From positions 1-31,105 of IMG/VR virus record IMGVR_UViG_3300032294_000336: a stretch of DNA of 31,105 nt. The stretch is one strand, 5' to 3'. Below are positions 10,858-31,105 of the stretch, piece after piece. The first letter of the stretch is position 1. Each line of letters starts with the position of its first letter. Under the pieces are notes generated by a model that searched no databases, was not told the origin of the DNA, and saw only the letters and a program-made list of their open reading frames with translations. The translations under genes and the position numbers were made by a program. The DNA comes from a virus.

Positions 10858-13800
10858 TTAGTTCGTGCGCGCCAGCCCGGTCCCAAACAGCGCTAGCTGA
10901 GCGATTTGCGACAGCGGCGATGCAGAATAAGTCTGCCCCGTCCCTTGCCCCTGCCCGCTTGTGGTTGTCGGGACGTAGGGGGCAATCCCGCGAAGCTGAT
11001 TGTTGAGCCACTCGACTTGCGAGCGCGGGTAATTGAGTTGCTCATAATACTGATTTTGCGCGGCGGTCAGTTCTGCCTGCTGTTGCCGTTGCTGCGCTTG
11101 TCCCGCTGCCTCTAGTGCGGCAACGTCTGCCGCGCGCAGCCCCTGTTCCTGCACCGCGAGTTGCGCCAGCGCGCCCGCCGCTGCCTGAGCCCGCGCTGCG
11201 TCAGCCCCGGCTGCCGTCGCAGCAGTCGCGCCCATGTTGGCGAGATTTGCCTGCTGAGTCGCCGTCAGGTTGCCCAGCGTCTGGGCCTGCTGACCGTATT
11301 GGCCCGCTGCGGTCAGTTGCTGGGCGTTGGCCTGCTGCTGGAGATTCGCGAGTTGACCCGCGCCTTGCAGGATAGCCTGTTGCTGAGCACCAGTCAGATT
11401 CCCGATGTTCAAACCGATTTGGCCCAACTGGCTCGCGCCTTGCAGTTGCTGGCCCACGGACGCCTGCTGCACATCCGCTAGCGCTCGGCCAATATTCAGC
11501 AAAGCAGCTTGTTGGGCGGTTGTCATTTGCCCCATCGTCTGCCCAGCTTGGCCGATCTGCGCGGCACCGGAGAGCCGCTGCGCAGCCTCGGCCTGCGCCG
11601 CAGCCGACTGAGCCTGCGCCGCTTGCAGCAACGCCGATTGCTGCGCGGCAGTCAGTCGCCCGGCCTCGACCCCGAACTGCCCGATCTGCGTGCCGGCAGT
11701 CAGTGCGCGAGCAAGATCGGCTTGTTGCGCTGCCTGCGCCGCCTGCGCCGCCTGCAATGACGCGGCTTGCTGCTGCGACCCCAACGTGCCCAGGGCCTGC
11801 CCCGCCTGAGATTGCGCCTGCGCCGCCGCAAGCGCGCGCGCCGCATCGGACGTCTGCGCGGCTTGCGTAGCCTGTGCCGCTTGCAATGAAGCGGCTTGCG
11901 CCTGCGTGCCCAGCCCACCCATCGTCCCCGCAAGCGCCGCCTGCGTCTGCGCTGCCCCCAGCGACCGTGCTGCGTCGGACGCCCGCGCCGCTTGTGCAGC
12001 CTGCGCTGCCTGGAGTTGCGCCGCCTGCTGCTGGGTGCCCAGCGTGCCCAGAGTCTGCCCGACTTGCGCCTGCGTCTGAGCCGCCGCAAGCGCCCGTGCC
12101 GCGTCCGTGGCCTGCGCGGCTTGCGTGGCTTGCGCTGCCCCGATCTCTGCCGCCTGCTGCTGCGAGCCGAGAGTCCCGAGCGTTTGCCCGACCTGAGCCT
12201 GCGTCTGCGCTGCTGCAAGCGCCCGCGCCGCGTCTGTGGCCTGCGCGGCCTGGGCAGCCTGCGCCGCGCTGACGCCTAGTTGCTGCTGGCCGAGCCCGGC
12301 TTGCGTTTGGGCCTGCCCGACGCCCAGCAAAGTCTGCGCCTGCTGATTGGCCAGTTGCCCAGCGGTCTGGCCCAGCGAACCGAGAGCTTGCATTTGCTGG
12401 CCAGTCAACTGCCCGGCTGTCTGCCCGAGTTGCGCATATTGCCCCGCACCCTGAAGCAAGCGCGAGATGTCGCCGCTAGCAATTTGCCCGGCTGTTGCGC
12501 CAAGCTGCCCCCTGCGCGCTAAATCCGCTTGCGATGCGCTGATCGCCTGCCCGTACCCCTGCTGGAGCGCGAGCGCTTGCTCTCGCAGAATTGCGTCCTG
12601 GGTATCTCGCAACGCGCGAGAACCAAACTCCCCCATGCGCCCAGACCCAAATTGGCCAGCTTTAATGAAGGCATCCGAAACAGCCGGCAAGAGGCTTTCT
12701 CGCAAATTGCGAGCGCCGCGCTGAGCAATGACGTCCAGCACGCCAGACTGGAACGGGTTGAAATACTGACCGAGATCGGCGGCGCTTGATTGCGCAGCGC
12801 TGCGCAGATACGGGTCTGCCGCAGCTATTGCCCGCTCAGCCAGCGCGGCGCTTGTCACGTCACCGGAAGCCCCGAGATAGGGCGCGGCGGCCTGCGTTGC
12901 GTCCATGCCGGCTGCGCGTTGTAGCGCAGGCGCGGCAGTCTGCAACGCATCCATCCCCGCAGCGCGGCCGAATGCCGTCTGTCCCGCCCCTAGGGCTTGC
13001 TGAGCAACATCGGGGCGCACATATCGACCCTGCTCCGCTTCCAGTCTGTTTGCCGTTTCGATGTCGCCGGCCGCTGCGGCACGCTGCGCAGCAACGCTCA
13101 GATACGGAGTCGCAGCAGTCAATCCGCCACGGGTTAACGAGGCGGCTTGCGATGCTGCAAGCTGCCCCGCAGTCTGAATATTGCCGGCCGCCTGCGCTCC
13201 ACTCACTGCCCCCGTCAGCATTGGCTGAGCAATGTCCAGGCCGCCGCGAGTGAGCGCGCCCGCTTGCGCCGCTTCCAGCCTGTTTGCCGTCTCGATGTCT
13301 CCCGCCGCTGCCGCTCGCTGCGCTGCGGGGCTGGCATATTCTCTCCCGATAGCCAGACCTGTTTGTTGCAGCGCAGCGTTTTGTGCCGCTCGCAGTTCAT
13401 CGGCGGTCTGCACCCGACCCGCTGCTGCCGCTTGTCCGGTTGCCTCATCAATCAGAGGGCGGGCAATCGACAGCCCCGATTGCGCCAACGCGGCGGCCTG
13501 ATCAGACCGCAGTTGCCCTGCGGTGTTGACCCCGGCTGCCTGCTGAATCATCCCCGTGCCAGCGTCGATACGCGGATTCGCCGCGCCAACTGCGCTCATC
13601 CCGACAGCAGCATTCAGATTCGGCGCGAGCGCTCGCGAGCCTGCCGCGTAATCAATGCCGCTCAATTGGCCAAGCTGCTGCTGGATGTAGCCTCCAGCGA
13701 CCGACGCTGGGTCGAGTCCCTGCGCCCGTGCGGCGAGTGGCGACAGTTGCGCCAGCGCGCCGCCGTAATTCATCCCAGAGAGCGCTGCTGACTGCTGGTT

Positions 13801-14268
13801 GAAATAAGGGGTCGCAGCCGCTGCGCCGCTCGTTGAGATAGCTTGCGAGAGATACGGGGAGTAGCTTGACGCCGGTTGCCCGTAATTGATGCCGCCGAGC
13901 AGATTCGACTGGGCGCCTAGCCGGTCCCTCGCGGCTTGCACCGGGTCCAGCCCCGTGGCCCTCGACAGATAGTCGTTCGCGGCCGACAAAGCACCCGCCC
14001 CGCCCGAGAGCCCTTGCAGCCCGGAGCGGGCTTCCGCGAGCCCAGGCGACCACGCTCCTTGATTTTCTCGGACCGCCCTGTAAGCGTCGGTTTGCAGGTC
14101 CGACATGCCCGCGACGGTCGGGAGCGAGTATGGTTGATACGGTGTGCTCGCAACATTCAGCGCGGCATTCACCTGATTGTAAATCGCTTCTTGCATCCAT
14201 CTCGGCGTTTCCGTCGAAGATGTCGTCGCCGAAAAAGACGACAGCGGCGTCCCTTGGAAAATGCTCAT
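10858..14268 (-). CDS. Giant Ala/Gln-rich tandem-repeat virion protein (1136 aa)
   Basis: Largest protein of the window. The N-terminus (res 1-60, TPRWMQEAIYNQVNAALN) is unique. Residues 243-413 hold four and a part copies of a 39-residue repeat (core AAGDIETANRLEAAQAG), and residues 649-1032 hold nine copies of a 43-residue repeat rich in Ala and Gln (core GQTLGTLGSQQQAA ... DAARALAAAQTQA). Between them, about res 500-600, a less repetitive part (FNPFQSGVLDVIAQRGARNL, FIKAGQFGSGRMGEFGSR) looks conserved. The C-terminus ends YYEQLNYPRSQVEWLNNQLR plus a Gly/Thr tail. It is predicted almost wholly helical and sits in the late region beside ejection-like proteins. A role as internal core, ejection-tube or tape-measure-like protein is inference. 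Confidence 0.68.
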   Translation of the reverse strand: MSIFQGTPLSSFSATTSSTETPRWMQEAIYNQVNAALNVASTPYQPYSLPTVAGMSDLQTDAYRAVRENQGAWSPGLAEARSGLQGLSGGAGALSAANDYLSRATGLDPVQAARDRLGAQSNLLGGINYGQPASSYSPYLSQAISTSGAAAATPYFNQQSAALSGMNYGGALAQLSPLAARAQGLDPASVAGGYIQQQLGQLSGIDYAAGSRALAPNLNAAVGMSAVGAANPRIDAGTGMIQQAAGVNTAGQLRSDQAAALAQSGLSIARPLIDEATGQAAAAGRVQTADELRAAQNAALQQTGLAIGREYASPAAQRAAAAGDIETANRLEAAQAGALTRGGLDIAQPMLTGAVSGAQAAGNIQTAGQLAASQAASLTRGGLTAATPYLSVAAQRAAAAGDIETANRLEAEQGRYVRPDVAQQALGAGQTAFGRAAGMDALQTAAPALQRAAGMDATQAAAPYLGASGDVTSAALAERAIAAADPYLRSAAQSSAADLGQYFNPFQSGVLDVIAQRGARNLRESLLPAVSDAFIKAGQFGSGRMGEFGSRALRDTQDAILREQALALQQGYGQAISASQADLARRGQLGATAGQIASGDISRLLQGAGQYAQLGQTAGQLTGQQMQALGSLGQTAGQLANQQAQTLLGVGQAQTQAGLGQQQLGVSAAQAAQAAQATDAARALAAAQTQAQVGQTLGTLGSQQQAAEIGAAQATQAAQATDAARALAAAQTQAQVGQTLGTLGTQQQAAQLQAAQAAQAARASDAARSLGAAQTQAALAGTMGGLGTQAQAASLQAAQATQAAQTSDAARALAAAQAQSQAGQALGTLGSQQQAASLQAAQAAQAAQQADLARALTAGTQIGQFGVEAGRLTAAQQSALLQAAQAQSAAAQAEAAQRLSGAAQIGQAGQTMGQMTTAQQAALLNIGRALADVQQASVGQQLQGASQLGQIGLNIGNLTGAQQQAILQGAGQLANLQQQANAQQLTAAGQYGQQAQTLGNLTATQQANLANMGATAATAAGADAARAQAAAGALAQLAVQEQGLRAADVAALEAAGQAQQRQQQAELTAAQNQYYEQLNYPRSQVEWLNNQLRGIAPYVPTTTSGQGQGTGQTYSASPLSQIAQLALFGTGLARTN
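11173..12324 (-). repeat. Nine tandem copies of a 129-bp (43-codon) repeat
   Basis: Copies begin at residues 649, 692, 735, 778, 821, 861, 904, 947 and 990 of the 1136-aa protein. All are 43 codons long except the fifth copy (res 821-860), which has lost three. The first five share DAARAL or a close variant near position 30 of the unit; the last four have drifted to a QIGQ/QLGQ ... LTxAQQ pattern yet keep the exact 43-residue period. Confidence 0.85.
13030..13542 (-). repeat. Four and a part tandem copies of a 117-bp (39-codon) repeat
   Basis: Copies begin at residues 243, 282, 321, 360 and 399 (the last is partial, to about 413) of the 1136-aa protein. The consensus is AAGxIxTAxxLxAxQAxxLT then RGGLxIAxP. 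Copies three and five share AAGDIETANRLEA exactly but with synonymous base changes, so the sameness is held at protein level. Confidence 0.82.
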
Positions 14269-16094: not shown

Positions 16095-16331
16095 TCAACT
16101 CAATGCTTGCATGAACCGCTCGGCCCACTCGCGCCAGTCGGAAAACCAGTATGGATTAGGGAAATTTCGACCGAGCGATGCATTGTTGAGGAACTGCATT
16201 GCCCAATTTTGCCAATTGCTAGGGTCGTCCAACCGGCCAAAAGTCCCGTATGGGTCCAGGTCGAGAGAAACCTGATTGGCCCAATCGACCAAGTCCATGT
16301 GCGATGGCAGCGTGACATGAGGGCGGCTCAT
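16095..16331 (-). CDS. Small Trp-rich virion-region protein (78 aa)
   Basis: Aromatic, with DPYGTFGRLDDPSNWQNWAM, FLNNASLGRNFPNPYWF and WREWAERFMQAL. Its start overlaps the stop of the gp10-like hub gene (ATGA) and it precedes the large internal proteins, a place where short structural or assembly genes are common. No named family; the strong motif character and tight coupling support a real gene. Confidence 0.6.
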   Translation of the reverse strand: MSRPHVTLPSHMDLVDWANQVSLDLDPYGTFGRLDDPSNWQNWAMQFLNNASLGRNFPNPYWFSDWREWAERFMQALS

Positions 16332-17848
16332 CCGAGGTGCGTCCTATCAGCAGGCTCAATGTGCCCGATAATTTGACCCATCTGGTAGTTCCCGTAAACC
16401 GCATTCGATTCAAACCGAACCCGCAACTCGCGGCGCTGTTCCTTGAGCATGACGATTTGCTCATGCGGCACGCTCGCCGCCTCGGGGAACGTGAACGTGC
16501 TGCTCACGATCTCGGGCGCCCGCGCGTTCGCTCGGCCGGTCACCTGGACCGTCATCGGTCCAGACTGCACAAAATCCGGCTCAATCATGGTGATGCGCAA
16601 AGCCTCGTCTTGCCCCTGCGCCAGCGACGAAAGGTCTGCGGTCTCAAAGAAGCTTCTGATGGGCCGAATGTTGGGGCCGTCGTATTCGTCCGTGTACTGC
16701 TCATGGACCCAAACCCTGTAGCCTGAGCCGGTGTTTTCGGCCCCGGTCAGGATGGGCGCGGCAAACGAATTGTTGAACTGCCCGGCGCTGCGCCCATTGT
16801 TGGGCAATTCGGTGTCGTACCAAGTGTTCTCGCGAACATTGTAGATGACCGCATGGGTGCATTCGGTAGCGTCACCACGCGGGTAACACCACCAGATTTC
16901 CCCGTATCGCGGCACCTTGAACGCAAACACTTGATTCCTGCCGCGTGGGCTAATCCCTTCAAAAAAGTAGTTGAGATTCAACTGGTTGGGGACTTCTCGC
17001 ACCACACCGTTGAACATCAGAAACCGATCCACGCCGGCCCAGAAAAACACCCCGTCATAGTCCACCACGCACTGCGGCGAGATGATCGACGTGTCAGTGG
17101 CGATCACGTCAAACTGGAACGCAGAGGTGCCGCCAACAAATGTCGCCCTCACCACGGCGTCGTAGGCCCAGAATATGCCCGCAGGCGCACTGCCTGAGCC
17201 CGCGCGCAGGGGCATGGCCTTGATGAATTTTTGGCCCCACGGGCGCGCCACCCCAGACCCCGCGCCGGTCAGGTCCGTCGGGTCTCCCGGCACCGACCAC
17301 CCCACCACTCCGTCGGTCCCGTAAAAGAACAGGTACGGGTGCAGCGAGACGATGCCGCCGGTTGCGTTGGTGCCAGCCGGCAGCGTGATGGCGCTCAGAG
17401 TGCTGGTGCCCAGCACAGGCCCGTAAAAAATCTGCCCGCCAGCGTCGTTGCAGATGCATTCGCGGTTGGGGGCAACGTGCGCCAGCACATAGTTCTGCCC
17501 CAAGGAAGCGTCATACTGGTAATCGAACATCCACTGATTGTTGTCCGACGCTGTGATCCCGGCGGGGGTGCGGTCCGTCACAATCGAACTGTTTCCGGAT
17601 GCGTCGAGGGTGAACCGCTCCAACTTTGATGAACCGCCCGAGTGGCAGTAGACGAACAACTGCTGCGTGAACGTCGAAAACCCTCTGCTGACTTGAGTCA
17701 GGAACCGCTGCGTGGATCGATACCCGCCCATTTTGCGTGGCAAGCCACGCTGCCAACGCACCCACTGCCCATCGACGTAATAGTCGCCCTCGTATTTGGT
17801 GCCGTCCCGCTTGATGCCGGGGACAGATTTGAGAACGATGGTGGGCAT
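16328..17848 (-). CDS. Beta-rich tail hub / packaged-DNA stabilisation protein (P22 gp10-like)
   Basis: A 506-aa protein made of repeated short beta strands with aromatic corners (QLFVYCHSGGSSKLERFTLD, YLFFYGTDGVVGWS, VFFWAGVDRFLMFNG, GEIWWCYPRGDA, AVIYNVRENTWYDTELP). This is the beta-propeller-like pattern of the P22 gp10 family, which forms the hub that closes the DNA channel and holds tailspikes. The start is placed at MPTIVLKSVPG (17848), 2 bases after the previous stop; a longer frame to 18070 would lie within the fibre gene and has Arg-rich nonsense composition. The family call rests on fold pattern and context, not on a search. Confidence 0.62.
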   Translation of the reverse strand: MPTIVLKSVPGIKRDGTKYEGDYYVDGQWVRWQRGLPRKMGGYRSTQRFLTQVSRGFSTFTQQLFVYCHSGGSSKLERFTLDASGNSSIVTDRTPAGITASDNNQWMFDYQYDASLGQNYVLAHVAPNRECICNDAGGQIFYGPVLGTSTLSAITLPAGTNATGGIVSLHPYLFFYGTDGVVGWSVPGDPTDLTGAGSGVARPWGQKFIKAMPLRAGSGSAPAGIFWAYDAVVRATFVGGTSAFQFDVIATDTSIISPQCVVDYDGVFFWAGVDRFLMFNGVVREVPNQLNLNYFFEGISPRGRNQVFAFKVPRYGEIWWCYPRGDATECTHAVIYNVRENTWYDTELPNNGRSAGQFNNSFAAPILTGAENTGSGYRVWVHEQYTDEYDGPNIRPIRSFFETADLSSLAQGQDEALRITMIEPDFVQSGPMTVQVTGRANARAPEIVSSTFTFPEAASVPHEQIVMLKEQRRELRVRFESNAVYGNYQMGQIIGHIEPADRTHLG

Positions 17849-17850
17849 TG

Positions 17851-19053
17851 TCAGAACGTCCCGCCGTTGACCACTCCGCTCGGAGCGACCCCAAGCGCGG
17901 CATACGCTGCGGCTTGATTCGCCGCAGTGAAAATAGATGAGCCCGTGGCGGATGCGCCCAGGTTGATGAGCGCAGCGCCCGCGCTGGTGGCTCCGGTGCC
18001 GCCTTGGGCAACGGTCAGCGGCAGCGCCAAGCCGGCCGTGTCGGCTTTGAGAACGTCGGTGCCGTCGCAATAGAGAATTGACCGCGAATTCTGGGTGACG
18101 CTAACCCCGAGACCGCCGCCGGACGGCGACACCGTCAGGGTAAACGCACCAGTCGTTCGATTGTCAACCCAGTATTGCTGCACGGTTGACGGAACAACAA
18201 CCGTGCGATTGCCAGTCAGCAACCCCGTGAATCGATACGCCACTCGGTTGAGTTCACTGCCACTGAGCGTGTAGGTGCCAGTGCCCGCAACGCTGATGAC
18301 GGTGTAGTCAAACGCAAAAACCGCCGACTGCCCAAACCCGATAGTGAAAAAATTGGTGCCGTCGCACGCGATGATGGCGGATTCCCTGGGTTGAAAACTC
18401 AGGGTAGCTGACCCGTCAATCGTATTGAGGCCGCTCGGGGTGGCGACAATCGTGCCGGTGCCACTGTTGCGCAGATAGACAAACCAGTTGTCTCCGACAA
18501 CCGATGCGCTCGGCAGCGTGAAGGTGCCTGCGGCGCCGGTCCAGTTGTAGAGCTTGGCTCGGTCGTTCACGCCTGCGATGTAATTGGCGTTGAACGCTGT
18601 TACGGGCACCGACTGACTGAGCAGCGTGCCAACCGCTACGATGCCCGTTCCCGCGAGCGACGATGCGTTGACCTGACTGGTCGATGCGCCGTATTGGAGC
18701 GACTGCCAAGTGCCCGCTGCTGTCGCGTTGCCGGTCAGATAGACTTGCCATAGCGTGCCCGCCGCAACCGTGACAACCTGCGTGCCGGCAGAGTCGCGCA
18801 CAGTGAATGTGTTCGCGCCCCGGTTGTTGAACAGGATCGTGTTGCCGGTGCTGGTTTTGTTGGCTGCGGGCAGCCGGATGCTCAACCCCGAGGTGCTCGG
18901 GGTAACGTCCATGATGCGGGTGGCAAGATTCTGGTTGGTGGAGGTTTCCTCCGGCCAACTCAGCGTAATGTCCGCTGACAGCGCTAGCGCCGAATAGGAC
19001 AACTCGCTCGGGTAGATATTCGCGCCGCCGAAGACATCAGTGTAGGTGGTCAT
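17851..19053 (-). CDS. Tail fibre-like protein (400 aa)
   Basis: Low in Lys/Glu and rich in Thr, Ser, Gly, Ala and Val, with many short beta strands (NTFTVRDSAGTQVVTVAAGT, TLWQVYLTGNATAAGTW, GTFTLPSASVVGDNWFVYL). Near the C-terminus LTVAQGGTGATSAGAALINL is the collar-type motif typical of phage tail fibres. It ends in NGGTF, the same last residues (GGTF) as the fibre gene at 25628. Gene order places it between the adaptor-like protein and the hub. Probable receptor-binding or fibre-attachment protein. Confidence 0.7.
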   Translation of the reverse strand: MTTYTDVFGGANIYPSELSYSALALSADITLSWPEETSTNQNLATRIMDVTPSTSGLSIRLPAANKTSTGNTILFNNRGANTFTVRDSAGTQVVTVAAGTLWQVYLTGNATAAGTWQSLQYGASTSQVNASSLAGTGIVAVGTLLSQSVPVTAFNANYIAGVNDRAKLYNWTGAAGTFTLPSASVVGDNWFVYLRNSGTGTIVATPSGLNTIDGSATLSFQPRESAIIACDGTNFFTIGFGQSAVFAFDYTVISVAGTGTYTLSGSELNRVAYRFTGLLTGNRTVVVPSTVQQYWVDNRTTGAFTLTVSPSGGGLGVSVTQNSRSILYCDGTDVLKADTAGLALPLTVAQGGTGATSAGAALINLGASATGSSIFTAANQAAAYAALGVAPSGVVNGGTF

Positions 19054-20786: not shown

Positions 20787-21084
20787 GATGCCTGTACTCC
20801 GGGGGAAGTTGCGTCCGGTCATGCTCGCTCACATAGGCTCGCTCGCAGTGCCTGATCAAAGGCCACGCGCGGTCGCGCACGGCGAGCCACGCGTCCTGCG
20901 GCCAGAAGAGCCAGTCGATCGCGACCCACGCGATGCGCCAGCGCCCCCACCGTTGCTCGCGCTTGTCGCGCAGGCCCAGCCGGAACGCCCGCGCCGACAG
21001 CGTCTCGTCGGCCCAGCCGGCCAGGATCGCGTTCGCGAGTTGGTCAGCCGCAACGAAGACCTGATGCACCCAGATGCGTTTCAT
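20779..21084 (-). CDS. Conserved phage protein beside the lysis genes (101 aa)
   Basis: It reads VFVAADQLANAILAGWADET, LSARAFRLGLRDKREQRWGR, WRIAWVAIDWLFWPQDAW, then HCERAYVSEHDRTQLPPEYR. The pattern (QLxNAxLxGWxDET-SARxxR ... CxxAYxxExxRxQLPPE) recurs in phages near holin and endolysin genes. Function is not known to me; a hydrophobic Trp-rich helix at res 50-62 could touch the membrane. ATG 21084 makes an ATGA overlap with the DUF4376 gene; the longer open frame to 21471 is a shadow. Confidence 0.6.
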   Translation of the reverse strand: MKRIWVHQVFVAADQLANAILAGWADETLSARAFRLGLRDKREQRWGRWRIAWVAIDWLFWPQDAWLAVRDRAWPLIRHCERAYVSEHDRTQLPPEYRHHA

Positions 21085-21704
21085 GTCGCCTCGTAGATCG
21101 CCGGCCACGGGATTGCGGCGATGTTGAATGCGCCGGGGTTTGTTTGAGCCTGAGCAATGGCTTGCTGTGCGACCGCGAAAGTCGAGGTATCCTGCGACGC
21201 CGCAGCCTGGAAGATTTCCTGCGCCAGCGCCGGGGTCATCACCACGAACGACCCGTCCATGGTCTTCCATTGGATGTTGGCCGGCAGGTTTTGGCCCATC
21301 AAGATCAGGCCGATCTGCTGCGTGCGGCTGATCACGTCGGAGTGGTACCATTTGCCTCCGGCCCGGTAGCCACCCTCGTTCGTGCGCCTGTCGCGCTCGG
21401 CCTTGATGGTCGAGACAATCGCCTCGGTGCGCTGTTGCAGTTCTTGAGGGGTGGCAGCCCGTACCACCCATGTTTGCTGCCAGCGGCCCGCTATTTGCTG
21501 CGGCGCGCCTTCATCAATCGACTGGCTGATTTGATTGTGGTCCGGGCGCGGCGTAACTGCCACTGGATAAACACCCCATTGAGCAAGATCGGCCTCCGTC
21601 GGATTTGCAGGGAACGACACCGTGGGGTTGTCGCGGCGCAATTGCGTGATGCTGAAGGGGTACGTTTCGATCTGGCCGTTGCTGATTTTGATGTACATCG
21701 ACAT
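21081..21704 (-). CDS. DUF4376-like tail-region protein
   Basis: A 207-aa protein with two parts. The N-terminus (YIKISNGQIETYPFSITQLR, then a VSFP ... WGVYPV region) resembles phage tail-fibre assembly or chaperone modules. The C-terminus (res about 100-200) has ERDRRTNEGGYRAGGKWYHSD, SRTQQIGLILMGQ, WKTMDGSFVVMTPALAQEIF and is typical of DUF4376, found on phage fibre-associated proteins. AGGAG stands about 7 bases before ATG 21704. Likely helps fold or attach a fibre made by the neighbouring genes. Confidence 0.68.
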   Translation of the reverse strand: MSMYIKISNGQIETYPFSITQLRRDNPTVSFPANPTEADLAQWGVYPVAVTPRPDHNQISQSIDEGAPQQIAGRWQQTWVVRAATPQELQQRTEAIVSTIKAERDRRTNEGGYRAGGKWYHSDVISRTQQIGLILMGQNLPANIQWKTMDGSFVVMTPALAQEIFQAAASQDTSTFAVAQQAIAQAQTNPGAFNIAAIPWPAIYEAT

Positions 21705-21713
21705 TCGTTTCTC

Positions 21714-22712
21714 CTACGCTGCAAGCCGCAACGCGAGTTTATCCTGCAAGGCTTGACGCACCGCCGCCATCGGCGCATCCCAGTTGCCGTATTGGGTTTG
21801 CCGAAACAACCGAACCGTGTCGTACCAGACGGATTTTTCGCCCGGTTTTGCCCACGCATAGTACGGCATGACGGGCACGACAACCCACGTTTCTTTACCC
21901 AAGGCGGCGGCGAGGTGGGCAATGCTGGTGCAGGAAGTGATGACCAGATCAAGGCCCGCGAGGATGCTCGCGGTGTCATCAAAAGTCTTCATTTGATCGC
22001 GCAAATCAGCGAACGGCAGACCGTCAATCAAGTCTTCATCACGCTGCAAACTGTAAAGCGTCACACCTGGGATGTTGTGCAGATCAATCAGCGGCTGGGG
22101 GTCAAACCTTCGATGCTGCTGGTGCTCGAACTCGGGGTTGCCGGCCCACCGAATGCCGACTTTCACCGTGCCGGGTTTTGCGTACAAGGAGCGCGGTTCA
22201 GCAGTCAGATACGGCTGACTGGGGAAGTTGTGCGAGTCGTAGCCGAGGATGTGCGCCGCCGACATTGACGGCACCCAGTAGTCGTAGTGGACGTAAGGGG
22301 TTGCGCCGTTGTCGATGCAGATGAACCCGTGTCGGGAGAAAAGCGCCATCAGCGACGGGTGGCAAGAGATGACAACACGGGCTCCCCGGCTGGCAAAGTC
22401 CTGCGCAAACCGGAAGTTCATGACCTGATCGCCGAGCCCGTTCTCGCACCGGAACAGCAGCGTCTTGCCGATCAGAGGCTCATCACGCCAGATGGGGCCG
22501 GGGATGCGCGGCAGGCCAAAGACGTCAATGAACCTGCCCGCATCCATCATGGACAAGCCTTTGTTGAGCCTGCCATGCCTCATCTCATGCCAGCCGAGAT
22601 TGAAGACCACCCGCGCATCATCTTGCTCAGGGTAAGCGCGAAGAATGTCTTCGGACACTTCAGGGCGCCCGTTGATGCACGCAGCCAGCGCGATGTCGAG
22701 TGGGTGTTTCAT
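21714..22712 (-). CDS. Phage glycosyltransferase, GT9/TPR-type
   Basis: A 332-aa enzyme predicted to move a sugar from an NDP-sugar to an acceptor. The first 65 residues are helical and TPR-like. ENGLGDQVMNFRFAQ (res 90-104) is the Gly-x-Gly-Asp loop of GT9-type enzymes. The C-terminal Rossmann half has VGIRWAGNPEF (185-195), LYSLQRDEDL, and ITSCTSIAHLAAALGKETWV (258-277), the nucleotide-sugar site of heptosyltransferase relatives, then PYYAWAKPG and a WYDTVRLFRQ tail. ATG 22712 overlaps the TGA of the RCC1 gene (ATGA), so the two are translated together. Acceptor unknown: a virion protein, host envelope sugar or phage DNA are all possible. Confidence 0.8.
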   Translation of the reverse strand: MKHPLDIALAACINGRPEVSEDILRAYPEQDDARVVFNLGWHEMRHGRLNKGLSMMDAGRFIDVFGLPRIPGPIWRDEPLIGKTLLFRCENGLGDQVMNFRFAQDFASRGARVVISCHPSLMALFSRHGFICIDNGATPYVHYDYWVPSMSAAHILGYDSHNFPSQPYLTAEPRSLYAKPGTVKVGIRWAGNPEFEHQQHRRFDPQPLIDLHNIPGVTLYSLQRDEDLIDGLPFADLRDQMKTFDDTASILAGLDLVITSCTSIAHLAAALGKETWVVVPVMPYYAWAKPGEKSVWYDTVRLFRQTQYGNWDAPMAAVRQALQDKLALRLAA

Positions 22713-24856
22713 GGGTTTTTGAGGGCGCCAGGAGTTATAGAACCGGCCGCCATAGAGGCCGACTCCCAAGAGTTCAGCGAACCAATCTGTATAGGAGAAG
22801 ACTTGTTGACCTTCGTGCCGTCTCCTAGCTGGCCGACTGCGTTAGACCCCCATGCCCACAGCGTCCCGTCGGTCTTGACAGCAACTGCAAAAGAGCCCCC
22901 ACCGGCAACTTGCGCCCAGTTTGATAGAGAGCCAATCTGCACAGGAGAAGACTTGCTGACTATGGTTCCGTCTCCTAGCTGGCCGACTGTGTTAACCCCC
23001 CATGCCCACAGCGTTCCATTGGTCTTGACTGCGTAGCCAGCGCCCCCACCTCCAGACACTTGCGCCCAGTCAGACAGAGCGCCAATCTGCACGGGTGATG
23101 ACTTGCTCACCGTGGTTCCGTCTCCCAATCGGCCGGAAGTGTTCGTCCCCCACGCCCACAGAGTTCCATTGGTTTTGATTGCGTGGGCGAAAGTGTCGCC
23201 CCCGGCAACTTGCGCCCAGTCTGAAAGAGCACCGATCTGAACAGGAGACGATTTAGTGACAATGGTGCCATCGCCCACTCGACCATCAGTCCCAACACCC
23301 CACGCCCACAGCGTGCCATCGGTCTTGATTGAATACCCATTGGAATTACCAGCAGCAACTTGCGCCCAGTTTGAAAGAGCGCCAATCTGAATAGGAGAGG
23401 ACTTACTAACGGTAGTGCCATCTCCAAGCTGGCCGTTTGTTCCTGACCCCCAAGCCCACAAAGTGCCGTTGGTCTTGCGTGCGATTGCCATGGTGCCCAC
23501 AGACACTTGCGCCCAATCAGACAACGCGCCAATCTGGACCGGGGAAGACTTGCCCACCGTGGTGCCGTCTCCTAATCGTCCATCAGTCCCAACACCCCAT
23601 GCCCACAGCGTGCCATTGGCCTTGATTGCAACGACCGTATTGGCCACAGACACTTTTGCCCATTCTGCTAGGGAGCCAAGCTGAACCGGGGATAAAATTT
23701 CACCCCCCGGCAACCCTGTGCTGGGAGCCTCTCCCCATGCCCAAAGAGAGCCGCCGGTTTTGATAGCAATACCCGCAAAAACACCCCCAGCAACTTGCGC
23801 CCAGTCAGACAAAGCACCGATCTGCACGGGGGAGGACTTGCTCACCGCTGTGCCATCTCCTAATCGGCCGTTGATCCCCTCGCCCCACGCCCACAAAGTG
23901 CCGTTGGTCTTGACTGCGTAGCCCGTGGTGCTTCCTCGAACTTGTGCCCAATCAGACAGAGCGCCGATCTGCACAGGAGAAGATTTGCTAACTAAGGTGC
24001 CATCGCCTAGCTGGCCAGACGCCCCGTTACCCCACGTCCACAAAGTGCCGTTGGTCTTGACTGCGTAGCTAGAGTTGAACCCTGCTGCAACTTGCGCCCA
24101 GTCAGACAGAGCGCCAATCTGCACGGGTGATGACTTGGTGACCGTGGTTCCGTCTCCCAATCGGCCATCGCCCCCAAACCCCCAAGCCCACAAGGAGCCA
24201 TTGGTTTTGACTGCCAATGCAAAAGCGTTCCCCGCTGCAACTTGTGCCCAATCAGACAAAGCACCGATTTGGACGGGAGATGATTTGCTAACTAAGGTGC
24301 CATCGCCTAGCTGGCCAGTTGATCCTATTCCCCACGCCCACAAGGTGCCGTTAGTCTTGACAGCGACTGCAAAAGCGTTCCCCCCAGCAACTTGCGCCCA
24401 ATCAGACAACGCGCCGATCTGAACGGGTGATGACTTGGTGACCGTGGTTCCGTCTCCTAATTGACCATTGCTCCCAGGCCCCCAAGCCCACAAAGTGCCG
24501 TTCGTCTTGATTGCGTACCCATTAACATCTCCCGCAGATACTTTTGCCCAATCAGACAAAGCACCGATCTGAACGGGGGAGGACTTGGTGACGGCAGTGC
24601 CATCGCCTAGCTGACCGCTCGCGTTATCTCCCCACGCCCACAGCGTGCCTCCTGTTTTAACAGCTAACGCAAAATTGCTATTCTCCGAAACGCTAGCCCA
24701 GTCCGTTGCTGTACCTACCTGCTTGGGGTTGGTTTCGTTTCCGGCCTGCCCATTGCCAACCTGCCCCGAAGCATTGCTTCCCCACAGATACAGTTCATAC
24801 CCGACACCACCAGCAGGCACATTCCCGGCAGCCGCTTGCAGATGTTTCGACAGCAT
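22709..24856 (-). CDS. RCC1-repeat beta-propeller protein, probably tail-associated (715 aa)
   Basis: Almost the whole protein is fourteen RCC1-type repeats of about 50 residues, each starting LWAWG-xxxx-GQLGDG, then KSSPVQIGALSDWAQV and a VKTNGT strand. RCC1 repeats fold into seven-bladed propellers, so fourteen copies suggest two propellers in a row. Repeat 8 (EAPSTGLPGG) is degenerate and starts the second set. It lies within the fibre genes, between a fibre-like protein upstream and a glycosyltransferase that overlaps its stop. A receptor- or sugar-binding tail role is inferred; RCC1 domains also act in protein binding. The first 20 residues (LSKHLQAAAGNVPAGG) are not repeats. It starts 9 bases after the previous stop with a weak RBS. 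Confidence 0.8.
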   Translation of the reverse strand: MLSKHLQAAAGNVPAGGVGYELYLWGSNASGQVGNGQAGNETNPKQVGTATDWASVSENSNFALAVKTGGTLWAWGDNASGQLGDGTAVTKSSPVQIGALSDWAKVSAGDVNGYAIKTNGTLWAWGPGSNGQLGDGTTVTKSSPVQIGALSDWAQVAGGNAFAVAVKTNGTLWAWGIGSTGQLGDGTLVSKSSPVQIGALSDWAQVAAGNAFALAVKTNGSLWAWGFGGDGRLGDGTTVTKSSPVQIGALSDWAQVAAGFNSSYAVKTNGTLWTWGNGASGQLGDGTLVSKSSPVQIGALSDWAQVRGSTTGYAVKTNGTLWAWGEGINGRLGDGTAVSKSSPVQIGALSDWAQVAGGVFAGIAIKTGGSLWAWGEAPSTGLPGGEILSPVQLGSLAEWAKVSVANTVVAIKANGTLWAWGVGTDGRLGDGTTVGKSSPVQIGALSDWAQVSVGTMAIARKTNGTLWAWGSGTNGQLGDGTTVSKSSPIQIGALSNWAQVAAGNSNGYSIKTDGTLWAWGVGTDGRVGDGTIVTKSSPVQIGALSDWAQVAGGDTFAHAIKTNGTLWAWGTNTSGRLGDGTTVSKSSPVQIGALSDWAQVSGGGGAGYAVKTNGTLWAWGVNTVGQLGDGTIVSKSSPVQIGSLSNWAQVAGGGSFAVAVKTDGTLWAWGSNAVGQLGDGTKVNKSSPIQIGSLNSWESASMAAGSITPGALKNP
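22740..24796 (-). repeat. Fourteen tandem ~150-bp RCC1-coding repeats
   Basis: The repeat period is about 50 codons, and the conserved half (KSSPVQIGALSDWAQV) is nearly identical at DNA level in most copies, for example GCGCCAATCTG/GCACCGATCTG preceded by the CCCAGTCAGACA family on the plus strand. The variable part is the four-residue loop after WAWG (DNAS, PGSN, IGST, FGGD, NGAS, EGIN, VGTD, SGTN, TNTS, VNTV, SNAV). Such arrays can gain or lose copies by recombination and can also confuse assembly. Confidence 0.85.
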
Positions 24857-24865
24857 CTCGTTGCC

Positions 24866-25618
24866 TTAAACGTAGCTACCCACGACCGCTCCATAAAGCG
24901 TCGTGGAGACCTTCCAGAACACCAGTGTATTGGCAGCAGTCAGCGTGGGCGCGACGTTGCCAGCCGAAGTCACCCATGTGATCGTTGGCCAACTCACGGT
25001 GTAACTCACTCCATTGGTCAGCATAAGCACAATGCTCTGCCCCGCGCTTAGCGAGTCCGTAAACGTCGGGTTGCCCGTCAAGGCACAAGTCTGGATGCTT
25101 CCGTTGGTCGGGTTTAGCGCAATGCTGCCCGTCGTGCCAAGAGCAAAAACCTGCTCGGTATAACCCTTGTTCAGGGCCAGCGTCTCAGCAGTCTTGTTGG
25201 TGAGCGTCTGCGTTGCGTCGGTGCCGACCAGCGTCGTCGTCGCATCCGGCAGCGTGAGCGTGCGGCTTGCGGTCAGCGTAGTCGGCTGGAACGTGACACG
25301 GAAAGACGACGCTCCACCAGCGCGGCCTGCCAGCACGATCCCGTCATGCGTGCTGGTCGCCGTCCCGAACGTCTGTCCGGTCGCGTTGAAAAACGTATTC
25401 GCGCCCGTAAAAGCGTTGTTTGATGCAGCTACGACATCACCAGACGATCCCGCATTCGACGCCAGGAGTTTGACCGTTCCGCCGGCATTCTTGAAATACA
25501 AACGCTCGTCGGTCAGGTTGATGGCAAGCTCCCCGTCGGCAAGGTTGCCTGCGGTAGGAACGGCCGATGCGGTGGTCGTCCGATAAAGCTGAATGGGGGT
25601 GAAGTTTGTCGCTGCCAT
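24866..25618 (-). CDS. Tail fibre-like protein (250 aa)
   Basis: The N-terminus FTPIQLYRTTTASAVPTAGN then LADGELAINLTDERLYFKNA is the widespread phage fibre opening (QLYR..T....P....L..GELAIN..D..L...). The rest is Thr/Ala/Gly-rich beta sequence with SRTLTLPDATTTLVGTDATQ and LSAGQSIVLMLTNGVSYTVS. It is probably a fibre shaft or adhesin with a C-terminal beta domain. The RBS AGGGAA stands about 6 bases before ATG 25618; the gene begins 9 bases after the GGTF-ending fibre gene and ends 9 bases before the RCC1 gene. Confidence 0.72.
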   Translation of the reverse strand: MAATNFTPIQLYRTTTASAVPTAGNLADGELAINLTDERLYFKNAGGTVKLLASNAGSSGDVVAASNNAFTGANTFFNATGQTFGTATSTHDGIVLAGRAGGASSFRVTFQPTTLTASRTLTLPDATTTLVGTDATQTLTNKTAETLALNKGYTEQVFALGTTGSIALNPTNGSIQTCALTGNPTFTDSLSAGQSIVLMLTNGVSYTVSWPTITWVTSAGNVAPTLTAANTLVFWKVSTTLYGAVVGSYV

Positions 25619-25627
25619 GATGATTCC

Positions 25628-26785
25628 CTAGAATGTGCCGCCGTCCAAGGCCCCCCAAACAGGAGCGCTCGCGCCATTGCTGCGCAACACTTGACCCGCT
25701 GTCCCGTTGGCTAGAAACGCTGTCGCTCCTGCGCCAGTTTGATATGGGATATTGCTAGCGACCCCGCCGCTCAAGTTGGTTGCCGACCCTACGGACAGCG
25801 CCGACTGATTGGTTTTCTCCCACAAGTCGCTGGTCGAGTTGTAGGTGATGGTTTGCCCATTGGTGGGGTTGAGCACCGCCACATCGTGCAACTCGTCTAG
25901 CTCGTAACCGTTCTGCGGCTTGACGTAAATCTGTCCGTTGCCCGCGTTGGCGCGCTCCACCACGCCGATGTAGACGAGATGATTGGGGGCATACGGTTTG
26001 GTCGCGGTGACGCTGCCAGCAGTCGCCCCCAGGTAGACCGTGTCGCCTTCGTTGAATGCGCCCGTATTGATGCCGTCCAGCACGCCTTGCGTGATTATGA
26101 ACCCGTCGCCGTTGGTGGCGATGTTTTCCGCCACCAACCCGAGCGTCTTCGCGCTGGTGGCGTCTCCGGTGTTTTGAGCCAGTCGCACGCTGGCTCGGTT
26201 GCCCGTGGCTTGATACAAGTAGACTGCTTGCCCCTTGGTCAGCGGGGAGCCCTGCGCATTACGCACATAGGCAAACATCTGCAACCCGAGGTCTGCCGAA
26301 ACATTGCCGCCGCGCAAACCGACCTGCGGAACCCCGAAAGTGGCATCCCACGCAATTCGCCCGACCGCCGACGGTGGCGCTGCCGTCGTGTTTAAGTCGA
26401 TGAAGTCAGGTGTGCTGATGCCACCTGAAACGCCCGTCATGCTGGTGATGTCGCTGTTGGCTCCAGACGCAGCCGCAAGCAAGTTGGCGCGGGCGAGTGT
26501 TGCGTTGTCCGCGCCCGTTCCCCCGCTGGCAACCGCCAGCGTCCCGCCAAGCGTCATCGTGCCCACGGACGTAATGGGCGACCCGGTGACCGTTAGCCCT
26601 GTAGCACCGCCAGAAAGGCCAACCGAACTGACAGACCCTGCCGCCGCCAAAAGATCGCCGATGCGGATGCTGTAGTTCTGGCCATTGACGACCACAATGA
26701 CCAGAGAGTTCAGATCAGCAGTTGGCGCCGTCGGAAGCTGCGTGATCCGAATCGGGATCAGGTTGGACGGGACATCAAACGTCAT
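25628..26785 (-). CDS. Tail fibre / collar-fibre protein (385 aa)
   Basis: The N-terminal IPIRITQLPTAPTADLNSLV and YSIRIGDLLAAAG are a common phage fibre opening. Then comes LGGTLAVASGGTGADNATLA (collar-type motif), a central domain (QGSPLTKGQAVYLYQATGNR, VAENIATNGDGFIITQGVLD, NEGDTVYLGATAGSVT) and YVKPQNGYELDELHDVAVLN. It ends AGQVLRSNGASAPVWGALDG plus GTF. These motifs recur in phage fibres and tail-collar proteins. It starts 2 bases after the upstream stop. Confidence 0.75.
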   Translation of the reverse strand: MTFDVPSNLIPIRITQLPTAPTADLNSLVIVVVNGQNYSIRIGDLLAAAGSVSSVGLSGGATGLTVTGSPITSVGTMTLGGTLAVASGGTGADNATLARANLLAAASGANSDITSMTGVSGGISTPDFIDLNTTAAPPSAVGRIAWDATFGVPQVGLRGGNVSADLGLQMFAYVRNAQGSPLTKGQAVYLYQATGNRASVRLAQNTGDATSAKTLGLVAENIATNGDGFIITQGVLDGINTGAFNEGDTVYLGATAGSVTATKPYAPNHLVYIGVVERANAGNGQIYVKPQNGYELDELHDVAVLNPTNGQTITYNSTSDLWEKTNQSALSVGSATNLSGGVASNIPYQTGAGATAFLANGTAGQVLRSNGASAPVWGALDGGTF

Positions 26786-29030: not shown

Positions 29031-30269
29031 TTACTGGGCTACGAAGCCCTGTGTGCTTGCGTACACTGCACCCGCACCGGACGCGGTAGCCGTCTGAATC
29101 TGCATCGCCGTGTTAATCGACCCCCGCAACGGCACCGGGAACTCGATGTAGCGCGGCGCAGCCCCCGTCGTCGGAATGCGCTGCATCCAGAGCACTTTGT
29201 GGAACGTCGCCGTCACACCCGTGCCGCTGATGGCCAGCGTTGCACCGCCCCGAGTGGCCGAGAGCGTGATGGTCGTCGTCGAGGGCACCGTCAGAACGTA
29301 GTACGTCACGCCCGTCGAAATGCCCGTCACGGTGCTCGCCGTGAAGACCACCGCGTCACCGACCAGCAGGTTGTGCGTAACCGAGACGGTCAGGGTGTTC
29401 GAAGCGATGGTTTGCGACGCGCAGGTCAGGTCCGGTTCGCGGATGCGGAGGTCGGTCGCGTTGGTCAACGCCTCGGAGTACAGATCGATAGCCGTGAGGT
29501 AGTTGCGCAGCAGCGCACCCGCAGCCTCCTTGATCTGCAACGGGGTCGCGGTGTTCACCAGCCCACCCACGTTGGCAGGCGTCTGCCACGACACCTCAGG
29601 GATTGAGTACGGCGACACCACCGCCGCCGCGCTGGTGGTCATCGTCAGTCGCGCCGCATCACCCGCAATGAGCGTCGTCGGAGCCACCGCCGAGCGCACC
29701 ACACCACCCACCGTGAGCGGGTTGGCACTCGCCGCAGCGTCTTCCGCCGCACCGCCGCCCGTGATCGCCGTGACCGTGCTGACCGTGGTGACGGTAGTGA
29801 CCGTACCCACCGAAGTGACTGCGCCGCCCTGCAACACGACCGGAGCCGCTGCGCTCATGTCGCCCGCCGGCCGCGCCAGCATCTCCACGCGCTCGCGCTC
29901 GTAGTCGAAGATGCGAACGAAGCTCAGCCGCAGATCAGTGCGCCGAATGACGCCACCACCGCAGTTGGTCGTCGCGAAGTCCGCCGGCAGCGCCCGCTGA
30001 CTTGGGAACGGCAGCACCAGCGTGAGCGTGGAACTCGCCACATTGGCGATCTTCCACGGGCCATCTACACCGAGGCTCGTCGTGCCGGTCACCGAATCAC
30101 GCACACCGACCAGTTCGACCAGATCGCCGATGGTCGTTGCAGGAGCCGCCCACGCAGCCGAGCCAATCAGCACCAGTTGCCGGGTGCCGTCACTGAGCGT
30201 GCTCAGGGAAGCGGATTGCGCCGTCTGCGCCACTGCGCCCAGCGCCGACATCAGATTGCCGCCTTGCAC
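29031..30269 (-). CDS. Virion protein (412 aa from GTG), N-terminus probably lost at the junction
   Basis: Thr/Val/Ala-rich beta protein. It opens QTAQSASLSTLSDGTRQLVL, has LSFVRIFDYERERVEMLARP, a repetitive TSVGTVTTVTTVSTVTAIT linker, then SWQTPANVGG and a C-terminal beta domain (NTLTVSVTHNLLVGDAVVFT, STGVTYYVLTV, ATRGGATLAISGTG). It is probably a capsid-decoration, neck or tail-associated protein. The first usable codon is GTG 30269 without a clear RBS, and the frame runs on upstream (GGYVARVQGG) into DNA that encodes an aminotransferase on the other strand, up to a TGA near 30345. The true start is therefore likely missing. Confidence 0.62.
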   Translation of the reverse strand: MQGGNLMSALGAVAQTAQSASLSTLSDGTRQLVLIGSAAWAAPATTIGDLVELVGVRDSVTGTTSLGVDGPWKIANVASSTLTLVLPFPSQRALPADFATTNCGGGVIRRTDLRLSFVRIFDYERERVEMLARPAGDMSAAAPVVLQGGAVTSVGTVTTVTTVSTVTAITGGGAAEDAAASANPLTVGGVVRSAVAPTTLIAGDAARLTMTTSAAAVVSPYSIPEVSWQTPANVGGLVNTATPLQIKEAAGALLRNYLTAIDLYSEALTNATDLRIREPDLTCASQTIASNTLTVSVTHNLLVGDAVVFTASTVTGISTGVTYYVLTVPSTTTITLSATRGGATLAISGTGVTATFHKVLWMQRIPTTGAAPRYIEFPVPLRGSINTAMQIQTATASGAGAVYASTQGFVAQ

Positions 30270-30290
30270 CCGGGCGACATAGCCGCCATT
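30264..30290. other. Junction between phage and bacterial chromosomal DNA
   Basis: Left of here the minus strand is a GC-rich phage virion gene; right of here the plus strand is an aminotransferase with lower GC, many TTG Leu and AAA/GAA codons. Recognisable aminotransferase sequence begins at IAAIPRSGIRDFFE (ATA at 30279), while the phage frame is still sensible to GGYVARV (about 30272-30287). GCCGCC occurs at both ends of this stretch, so a few bases of microhomology are possible. No tRNA, integrase or att-like repeat is seen. Confidence 0.7.
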
Positions 30291-31105
30291 CCGCGTTCGG
30301 GGATCCGCGATTTCTTCGAACTCGTGCAGGGGCGCGACGATGTCATTTCATTGGGCGTGGGCGAGCCCGATTTCGCCACGCCGTGGCACATTCGCGAAGC
30401 TGCGATTTATTCGTTAGAAAAAGGGCAGACCAGCTACACCTCCAACTTGGGCTTGTTGAGTTTGCGCAAAGCGATTGCCAAGTATGTGAGTGGATTTTTT
30501 CACGTCGATTACCAAGCCGAGAAAGAAATCTTAGTGACGGTGGGAGTGAGTGAGGCGATCGATTTGGCCTTGCGCGCCTTGATCAATCCGGGCGATGAGG
30601 TCATTTATCATGAGCCTTGTTACGTTTCCTACAGTCCGAGCATCGTCATGGCCTATGGCAAACCGGTATCGGTAGTGACCAAAAAAGAAGATGGATTTTC
30701 GCTCAAGCCCGAAGCCCTCGCAGCGGCGATCACGCCGCGGACGCGGGTGTTGATGTTGAACTTTCCGACCAATCCGACAGGAGCGTGTGCGGCGAAAGAA
30801 GACTTGGAAGGGATTGCGAAGTTGTGCATCGAGCACGATCTGATCGTGATGAGCGATGAGATCTACAGTGAGTTGCGCTACGACGAAGAAGAGCACGTGA
30901 GCATTGCGTCCGTGCCGGGCATGCGTGAGCGGACGATTTTGTTGCATGGTTTTTCCAAGGCCTTCGCGATGACGGGATTCCGATTGGGCTATGCGTGTGC
31001 GCCGCAGCCGATCATCGAAGCGATGATGAAAATTCACCAGTATGCGATGCTATGCGCGCCGATCATGAGTCAGAATGCGGCATTGGAAGCATTAGAAAAC
31101 GGTGG
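30279..31105 (+). CDS. Class I/II PLP-dependent aminotransferase, both ends missing
   Basis: About 275 residues of a fold-type I aminotransferase that moves an amino group between an amino acid and a 2-oxo acid in the cytoplasm. Visible are SLGVGEPDFATPWHIREAA, GQTSYTSNLGLLSLRKAI, VTVGVSEAIDLALRALINPG, MLNFPTNPTGA (substrate/PLP Asn), VMSDEIYSELRYD (Asp and Tyr) and HGFSKAFAMTGFRLGYACAP with the PLP lysine at 30957-30959. The N-terminus begins at AAIPRSGIRDFF without a start codon of its own (only a TTG at 30264 in presumed phage DNA), and the 3' end leaves the window. Base and codon use differ from all upstream genes; Verrucomicrobia/Opitutus-like relatives come to mind but cannot be tested here. 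Confidence 0.88.
   Translation, partial: MAAIPRSGIRDFFELVQGRDDVISLGVGEPDFATPWHIREAAIYSLEKGQTSYTSNLGLLSLRKAIAKYVSGFFHVDYQAEKEILVTVGVSEAIDLALRALINPGDEVIYHEPCYVSYSPSIVMAYGKPVSVVTKKEDGFSLKPEALAAAITPRTRVLMLNFPTNPTGACAAKEDLEGIAKLCIEHDLIVMSDEIYSELRYDEEEHVSIASVPGMRERTILLHGFSKAFAMTGFRLGYACAPQPIIEAMMKIHQYAMLCAPIMSQNAALEALENG

Follow-up and report, generated by a model that had tools for sequence, protein, structure and literature searches.

Proteins built from RCC1 repeats occur in 600 or more viral stretches, and what they do in a phage is the question raised by a 31,105-base virus contig (IMG/VR record IMGVR_UViG_3300032294_000336, taken whole and called the window below). One of its genes encodes a 715-residue protein with fourteen such repeats, placed behind a tail fibre gene. 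Phage RCC1 proteins are annotated under DNA metabolism; the genomic context, module swapping and fibre fusions described here point to host recognition instead. We propose that the protein is probably the distal host-recognition module, a fibre-tip adhesin, of a podovirus tail fibre. The window itself carries a podovirus-like gene set, including relatives of the P22-type stabilisation protein, an endolysin and fibre genes; the relatives with which it was compared (L-numbered loci) are largely metagenomic contigs.

Repeat architecture and predicted fold

The RCC1 open reading frame (ORF) runs on the minus strand from an ATG to a TGA. Its product divides into fourteen units, each opening with L-W/Y-x-W-G and nearly all 49-50 residues long. 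The original prediction, made from the DNA letters, had described fourteen near-identical RCC1 repeats: their number stands, but only about eleven are near-identical, because repeats 1 and 8 and the second half of repeat 14 diverge. Repeat 8, rightly singled out there as the odd one, has 46 residues and lacks the GQLGDGT motif. The odd repeat likewise stands at position 8 in relatives L086 and L089, and apparently also in L246, a locus cut at its 5' end. In a hidden Markov model search the Pfam RCC1 profile, PF00415, matched 13 stretches of the 715-residue protein above its curated cut-off (E 1.4e-123), far beyond chance; the best PHROG match is phrog_4219 (E 7e-78).

We modelled the protein with AlphaFold2 (AF2) on an alignment of 38 rows, all homologues of about fourteen repeats. 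The model has a mean predicted local distance difference test score (pLDDT) of 82.5 and contains two separate seven-bladed propellers, low confidence being found mainly at residues 1-18, 350-390 (the junction) and 707-715. An earlier model on a 9-row alignment was poor (pLDDT 50.7); its rows, of differing repeat number, were probably misaligned. The cut between the domains coincides with the repeat 7/8 boundary, and the odd repeat opens propeller 2. Each half aligns to a complete single propeller: propeller 1 to HERC2 RLD2 (7q40_C; VIA Z 50.3, root-mean-square deviation 1.7 Å over 349 residues) and propeller 2 to RPGR (4jhn_C; VIA Z 46.2, 1.9 Å over 339 residues). A UVR8 profile matches positions 358-702 (E 5e-75), and Foldseek of the model returns template modelling scores up to 0.89, normalised by target length.

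Repeat numbers across viruses agree with this architecture. We counted repeats in all complete viral ORFs with at least three of them (220 after redundancy removal): 149 have 7 repeats, 24 have 14, six have 21 and three have 28. Beyond seven repeats, multiples of seven account for 37 of 67 ORFs (binomial p 6e-15 against 1/7), and an unconstrained repeat number was rejected on this clustering. Many phages carry two or more single-propeller RCC1 genes side by side, and in some the arrays reach 84 repeats. Model, half-by-half alignment and census together support two closed seven-bladed propellers as the predicted fold, as had been suggested from the position of the odd repeat.

A fibre gene, a proposed docking peptide and exchangeable modules

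The RCC1 gene lies in a fibre cluster, as originally described: PHROG fibre or tail matches fall at 24866-25618, 21081-21704 and 17851-19053. The same gene order was sought in other phages, and in near relatives the RCC1 gene again stands directly behind a homologue of the 250-residue fibre gene. The cluster combines a conserved attachment region with an exchangeable distal part. The C-terminal ~100 residues of the fibre protein form the constant part directly upstream, and the first 12 residues of the RCC1 protein follow the consensus M-[LI]-x-K-x-L-x-A-A-A-G-N, which is shared with fibre-tip proteins without RCC1 repeats. A search of the Protein Data Bank with the 250-residue sequence gave nothing useful.

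We searched the whole viral collection with a degenerate DNA pattern for M-x-x-K-x-L-x-A-A-A-G-N, for which about one match is expected by chance. It was found in 19 viral stretches, and in all of them it opens a reading frame of at least 190 residues. The modules behind this plug vary: RCC1 repeats, three Laminin_G_3 domains, DUF7483, a combination of LamG, SPRY and DUF7483, or WD-like propellers. By contrast, 16 of the 19 loci share one C-terminal fibre domain in the gene ending at the plug start, at a gap of -4 to +9; two of the others have a different ORF ending there and one is cut. Docking peptide and fibre end are constant and the distal part is swapped; the latter therefore behaves as a host-recognition module. 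The N-terminal peptide would dock the RCC1 protein onto the C-terminal domain of the upstream fibre protein, and the tip would be exchangeable, relatives using laminin-G, DUF7483 or WD-like modules behind the same peptide.

Two further observations concern these N-termini. In L256 (position 7319) and L265 (position 3548), a different ORF (KDQA.NRRSN...), not that of the fibre, ends where the plug begins; it resembles genes of the homing-endonuclease type and may have been inserted between the fibre gene and the tip gene. RCC1 modules are also found behind other recurrent N-termini: tandem single-propeller arrays in L024, L039, L077, L384 and others begin with a QYSGIW..AxxAGTWP peptide, which also opens non-RCC1 proteins in L192, L206 and L225 and is probably a second docking peptide.

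Cultured phages provide fibre fusions. Pseudomonas phages PollyC and Ppr_SeaP3 carry the RCC1 gene with the gene for a transglycosylase-containing internal virion protein on one side and the holin/terminase genes on the other, the position that gp17 occupies in T7. Its products, PollyC gp38 and SeaP3_12, begin as fibre proteins do (matches to PHROG fibre families with E as low as 1.7e-66, and to PF03906 at E 7e-5, just below the cut-off), continue with a region that looks coiled and end in an RCC1 domain. Module swapping behind a constant peptide and the fusion of RCC1 domains to T7-type fibres support the suggestion that the propeller would serve as a host-binding tip.

The PHROG classification (DNA, RNA and nucleotide metabolism) implies something else, namely that RCC1 serves to condense or order the phage's DNA within its capsid; PollyC gp38 itself is a full-length match (E 0) of phrog_4219, a family labelled DNA metabolism. 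Relatives are indeed present in virions: three phrog_4219 proteins in W70 (W70_237-239, 141-233 spectra; PMC11370258), six listed 'DNA condensation' proteins in phAPEC6 (PMC7247149) and one such RCC1 protein, gp001, in GAP32 (PMC5259590), in each case reported without localisation. The W70 and phAPEC6 papers propose a DNA-packing role (PMC11370258, PMC7247149), the argument in the latter building on the nucleosome binding of eukaryotic RCC1. The window protein is, however, neutral (pI 6.8, 38 basic and 38 acidic residues), and its N-terminus, MLSKHLQAAAGNVPAGG, is not a basic tail of the kind used for nucleosome binding. Its gene follows a fibre gene, homologues are fused to a T7-type fibre N-terminus, and RCC1 swaps with lectin-like modules. 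On charge and context, a DNA-binding role is disfavoured, and condensation appears very improbable.

Where, then, would a tip protein touch its host? Variability was compared both among repeats and with the phage's nearest relatives. Along the repeat, synonymous divergence stays level (pS, the proportion of synonymous differences, about 0.5); amino-acid change is concentrated at repeat positions 6-9 (after WAWG), 38-43 (after V-A-G-G) and partly 17-19. In the four residues after WAWG and the roughly four after V-A-G-G it is about ten times that of the rest at equal synonymous divergence, the ratio of non-synonymous to synonymous differences (pN/pS) being 0.68 and 0.81 in the two main loops against 0.07 in the framework. 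The variable loops anticipated after WAWG are thereby supported and joined by a second set.

The AF2 strand order per repeat is WAQVA, YAVK, LWAWG and SPVQIG. By this order, the variable positions would be the A-B and C-D loops, on one face of the antiparallel meander; the conserved KTNGT and ALSDW turns would lie on the opposite face. The two propellers would then present rings of hypervariable loops that may contact a host surface glycan or protein. As a sequence pattern, this variability is consistent with host binding and a role in host range.

A looser function can be imagined, in which RCC1 proteins decorate the fibre, collar or capsid and attach weakly and generally to mucus, extracellular polysaccharide or particles. 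Arrays of up to 84 repeats do resemble multivalent surface coats, and phages CBB and phAPEC6 bear hair-like appendages of unknown composition (PMC5259590, PMC7247149). Against this, the window gene stands behind one fibre gene and is exchanged as one module, the RCC1 domain of PollyC is the C-terminus of a protein at the gp17 fibre position, and variability is limited to one set of loops. We consider decoration unlikely, and retain the fibre-tip adhesin, a role that changes how host range is read from genomes carrying RCC1 genes.

A predicted glycosyltransferase linked to the RCC1 gene

The original prediction overlooked a partner directly downstream, a gene for a GT9-like glycosyltransferase; its linkage to RCC1 is new here. 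The transferase start overlaps the RCC1 stop as ATGA. In 15 transferase homologues, G92, G94 and D95 of a G-x-G-D motif are invariant, and by analogy with WaaC we assume D95 to be the catalytic aspartate of the N-terminal lobe.

A profile of the transferase matched 89 of 138 viral RCC1 loci and 4 of 179 viral loci without RCC1, the latter fetched via neighbouring genes of this phage and hence a control for its relatives rather than for all phages. All four control positives duplicate RCC1 loci; de-duplication had removed their RCC1 frames as identical. Transferase homologues with an upstream RCC1 gene are separated from it by a median of 29 bases. A reverse search from the transferase, independent of the 179 control loci, gave the same picture: among the best 80 of 312 matches, 76 directly follow an RCC1 gene at a distance of at most 300 bases, and the remaining four start at or near a contig or locus edge (one showing an RCC1 fragment), which makes 76 of 76 testable loci. 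When loci with 2 kb visible behind RCC1 were reduced to one per 70% cluster, the transferase was present in 57 of 72 non-redundant viral RCC1 loci; among bacterial RCC1 loci, it was found in 1 of 73. Loci with LamG or DUF7483 behind the plug do not carry it.

Longer transferase homologues, of about 590 residues, are fusions of Sulfotransfer_3 with the transferase, and others carry TPR repeats. Two cultured cyanophages, BUCT-ZZ01 and S-SRM01, have the RCC1 and transferase genes next to each other as well; BUCT-ZZ01 infects the laboratory cyanobacterium Synechococcus elongatus PCC 7942, and its RCC1 protein is UTS52180. In S-SRM01 the pair is followed, a few genes on, by sulfotransferase, glycosyltransferase and nucleotide-sugar epimerase genes (L420 14171-18555), possibly a modification island.

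We now propose, tentatively, that the transferase glycosylates the propeller: it would act within the infected cell, no later than virion assembly, and yield a glycosylated adhesin. A candidate acceptor site is a Ser-Ser-Pro motif in the C-D loop, near-constant in phage propellers and not in bacterial ones. Its first position is Ser or Thr in 91% of propellers with the enzyme directly behind, in 79% of phage propellers without it seen and in 31% of bacterial ones, a pattern that is suggestive only and that ancestry could explain instead.

A literature search for RCC1 with a glycosyltransferase in phages found nothing relevant; in one apparent match, RCC is a culture-collection code. Precedents for the pairing exist in bacteria: the adhesins of AIDA-I/Aah and TibA/TibC are modified by their own heptosyltransferases of the BAHT family, which features a four-cysteine iron finger in the C-lobe (PMC4358343). 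Membership of the phage enzyme in this family was rejected for want of that finger: its last cysteine is C261 of 332, with none in the last 70 residues, and no cysteine is invariant among the 15 homologues.

The glycosylation step alone has a rival, in which the enzyme's target is the host surface, for superinfection exclusion or to mask the receptor, and the link to RCC1 reflects no more than a shared receptor. Phage glycosyltransferases that alter O-antigen are well known, GT9 enzymes typically act on lipopolysaccharide, and genes that bind and modify the same receptor may remain linked. The linkage, however, follows the RCC1 fold across podoviruses and T4-like cyanophages rather than the receptor-binding position; a host-surface target would lead one to expect linkage to other tip modules too, and the LamG and DUF7483 swap loci are without the gene, the control positives all being RCC1-locus copies. 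We regard this alternative as fairly unlikely, and modification of the propeller as the preferred if tentative assignment.

Several observations weigh against our proposals. The GT9 match is weak: TIGR02193 (heptosyltransferase I) reaches E 0.0056 on the 332-residue window protein, and PF01075 (Glyco_transf_9) only E 1.3e-4 in relative L081, at 21.8 bits against a cut-off of 22.0. The predicted template modelling score of the AF2 model is 0.52, and the relative placing of the two propellers is not fixed by it. pN/pS stays below 1 throughout, which indicates relaxed or diversifying change and falls short of proof of positive selection. In two near relatives the repeat 7/8 junction carries in-frame deletions (L087:10730-12718 and L089:363-2462, both rejoining at QLGDGTINPRSS), and one near relative has 12 repeats; these 12- and 13-repeat forms may reflect assembly collapse or tolerance of imperfect propellers. 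Finally, the RCC1 arrays of 121Q-type jumbo phages are remote from any annotated fibre gene, and no glycosyltransferase is annotated in their vicinity; for that reason the RCC1 family may have more than one use. In 121Q itself, positions 117089-131255 (L497 9090-23256) hold more than 12 RCC1-like genes and fragments, several of which appear to be broken or split.

With these reservations we suggest, as a possibility still short of probable, a widespread two-gene phage cassette of an RCC1 propeller adhesin and a GT9-like transferase, sometimes sulfotransferase-fused, that would make a glycosylated and sometimes sulfated fibre tip; much of the PHROG 'regulator of chromosome condensation' class would then be host-recognition machinery. 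If true, this pairing of a virion adhesin with its own glycosyltransferase, in some cases accompanied by a sulfotransferase, would be a new way to build or vary phage tips.

Neighbouring genes and related systems

Coordinates of the features discussed here are collected in the table. The 385-residue fibre-like protein has no convincing family match of its own, and a promoter and terminator scan of the window stayed at chance level.

Table. Features around the RCC1 gene of the window
Feature	Coordinates	Strand	Basis
RCC1 protein, 715 aa, 14 repeats, two predicted seven-bladed propellers	22709..24856	minus	ORF, Pfam, AF2
N-terminal peptide MLSKHLQAAAGNVPAGG (aa 1-17), proposed docking plug	24806..24856	minus	pattern scan, loci
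Propeller 1 (predicted), aa 18-366, repeats 1-7	23759..24805	minus	VIA-align
Propeller 2 (predicted), aa 367-715, repeats 8-14	22712..23758	minus	VIA-align, UVR8 profile
Odd repeat 8 (aa 371-416), first blade of propeller 2	23609..23746	minus	repeat split
GT9-like glycosyltransferase gene, 332 aa	21714..22712	minus	weak TIGR02193, GxGD, gene linkage
DUF4376/tail fibre-associated protein, 207 aa, downstream of the glycosyltransferase gene	21081..21704	minus	PF14301 E 7.9e-15; PHROG tail
Fibre protein, 250 aa	24866..25618	minus	PHROG fibre matches
Upstream fibre-like protein, 385 aa, longer in relatives	25628..26785	minus	same cluster

Three other genes of the window deserve mention. An aminotransferase-like ORF (30177-31103, plus strand; phrog_5879, E 2e-44) is cut by the right end of the window and is oriented against the structural genes; it may represent host DNA or a metabolic gene carried by the phage. 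A 1136-residue protein (10858-14268, minus) with many degenerate AQAAQATDAARALAAAQTQAQ repeats and no PHROG match is possibly an internal or ejection protein. The stabilisation protein (16328-18070, minus) is about 105 residues shorter than those of relatives L086, L206 and L218; the difference lies near residues 175-177 and is either an insertion in the relatives or a deletion in the window copy.

Among known systems, eukaryotic RCC1, HERC2 RLD, UVR8 and RPGR have the same fold, to which the model halves align at Z 43-50. The phage protein shows no sign of RCC1's DNA-binding function or of its Ran exchange, which works through the beta-wedge; Ran is not known from phages or bacteria.

BLIP-II, an RCC1-like seven-bladed propeller of bacterial origin that binds a protein ligand, aligns to propeller 1 at Z 29.4. 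Since BLIP-II binds proteins tightly through its loops, the RCC1 protein could by the same token be an intracellular inhibitor of a host protein and not part of the virion. BLIP-II differs in being a single-propeller, secreted inhibitor without a fibre plug, and the fibre-gene context, the fibre fusions of cultured phages and the virion proteomics of relatives make an inhibitor highly improbable beside the fibre-tip adhesin.

The phage families phrog_4219, phrog_7220 and phrog_16766 share the RCC1 repeats, and members are found in virions or with a T7-type fibre N-terminus. Most are single propellers without the AAAGN peptide, filed under DNA metabolism, whereas the window protein combines a double propeller, a fibre plug and a glycosyltransferase partner.

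AIDA-I/Aah and TibA/TibC resemble the present pair in that a repeat-built surface adhesin is coupled with a GT9-like transferase. In the phage, however, the adhesin is a beta-propeller and not a beta-helix autotransporter, its gene comes first, and the enzyme is without the iron finger.

A parallel in layout is gp38 of T2 and S16: the product of a small separate gene directly behind the fibre gene, with a constant N-terminal attachment and variable ligand-binding loops. The window protein differs from it in the RCC1 double beta-propeller fold, the podovirus background and the glycosyltransferase partner.

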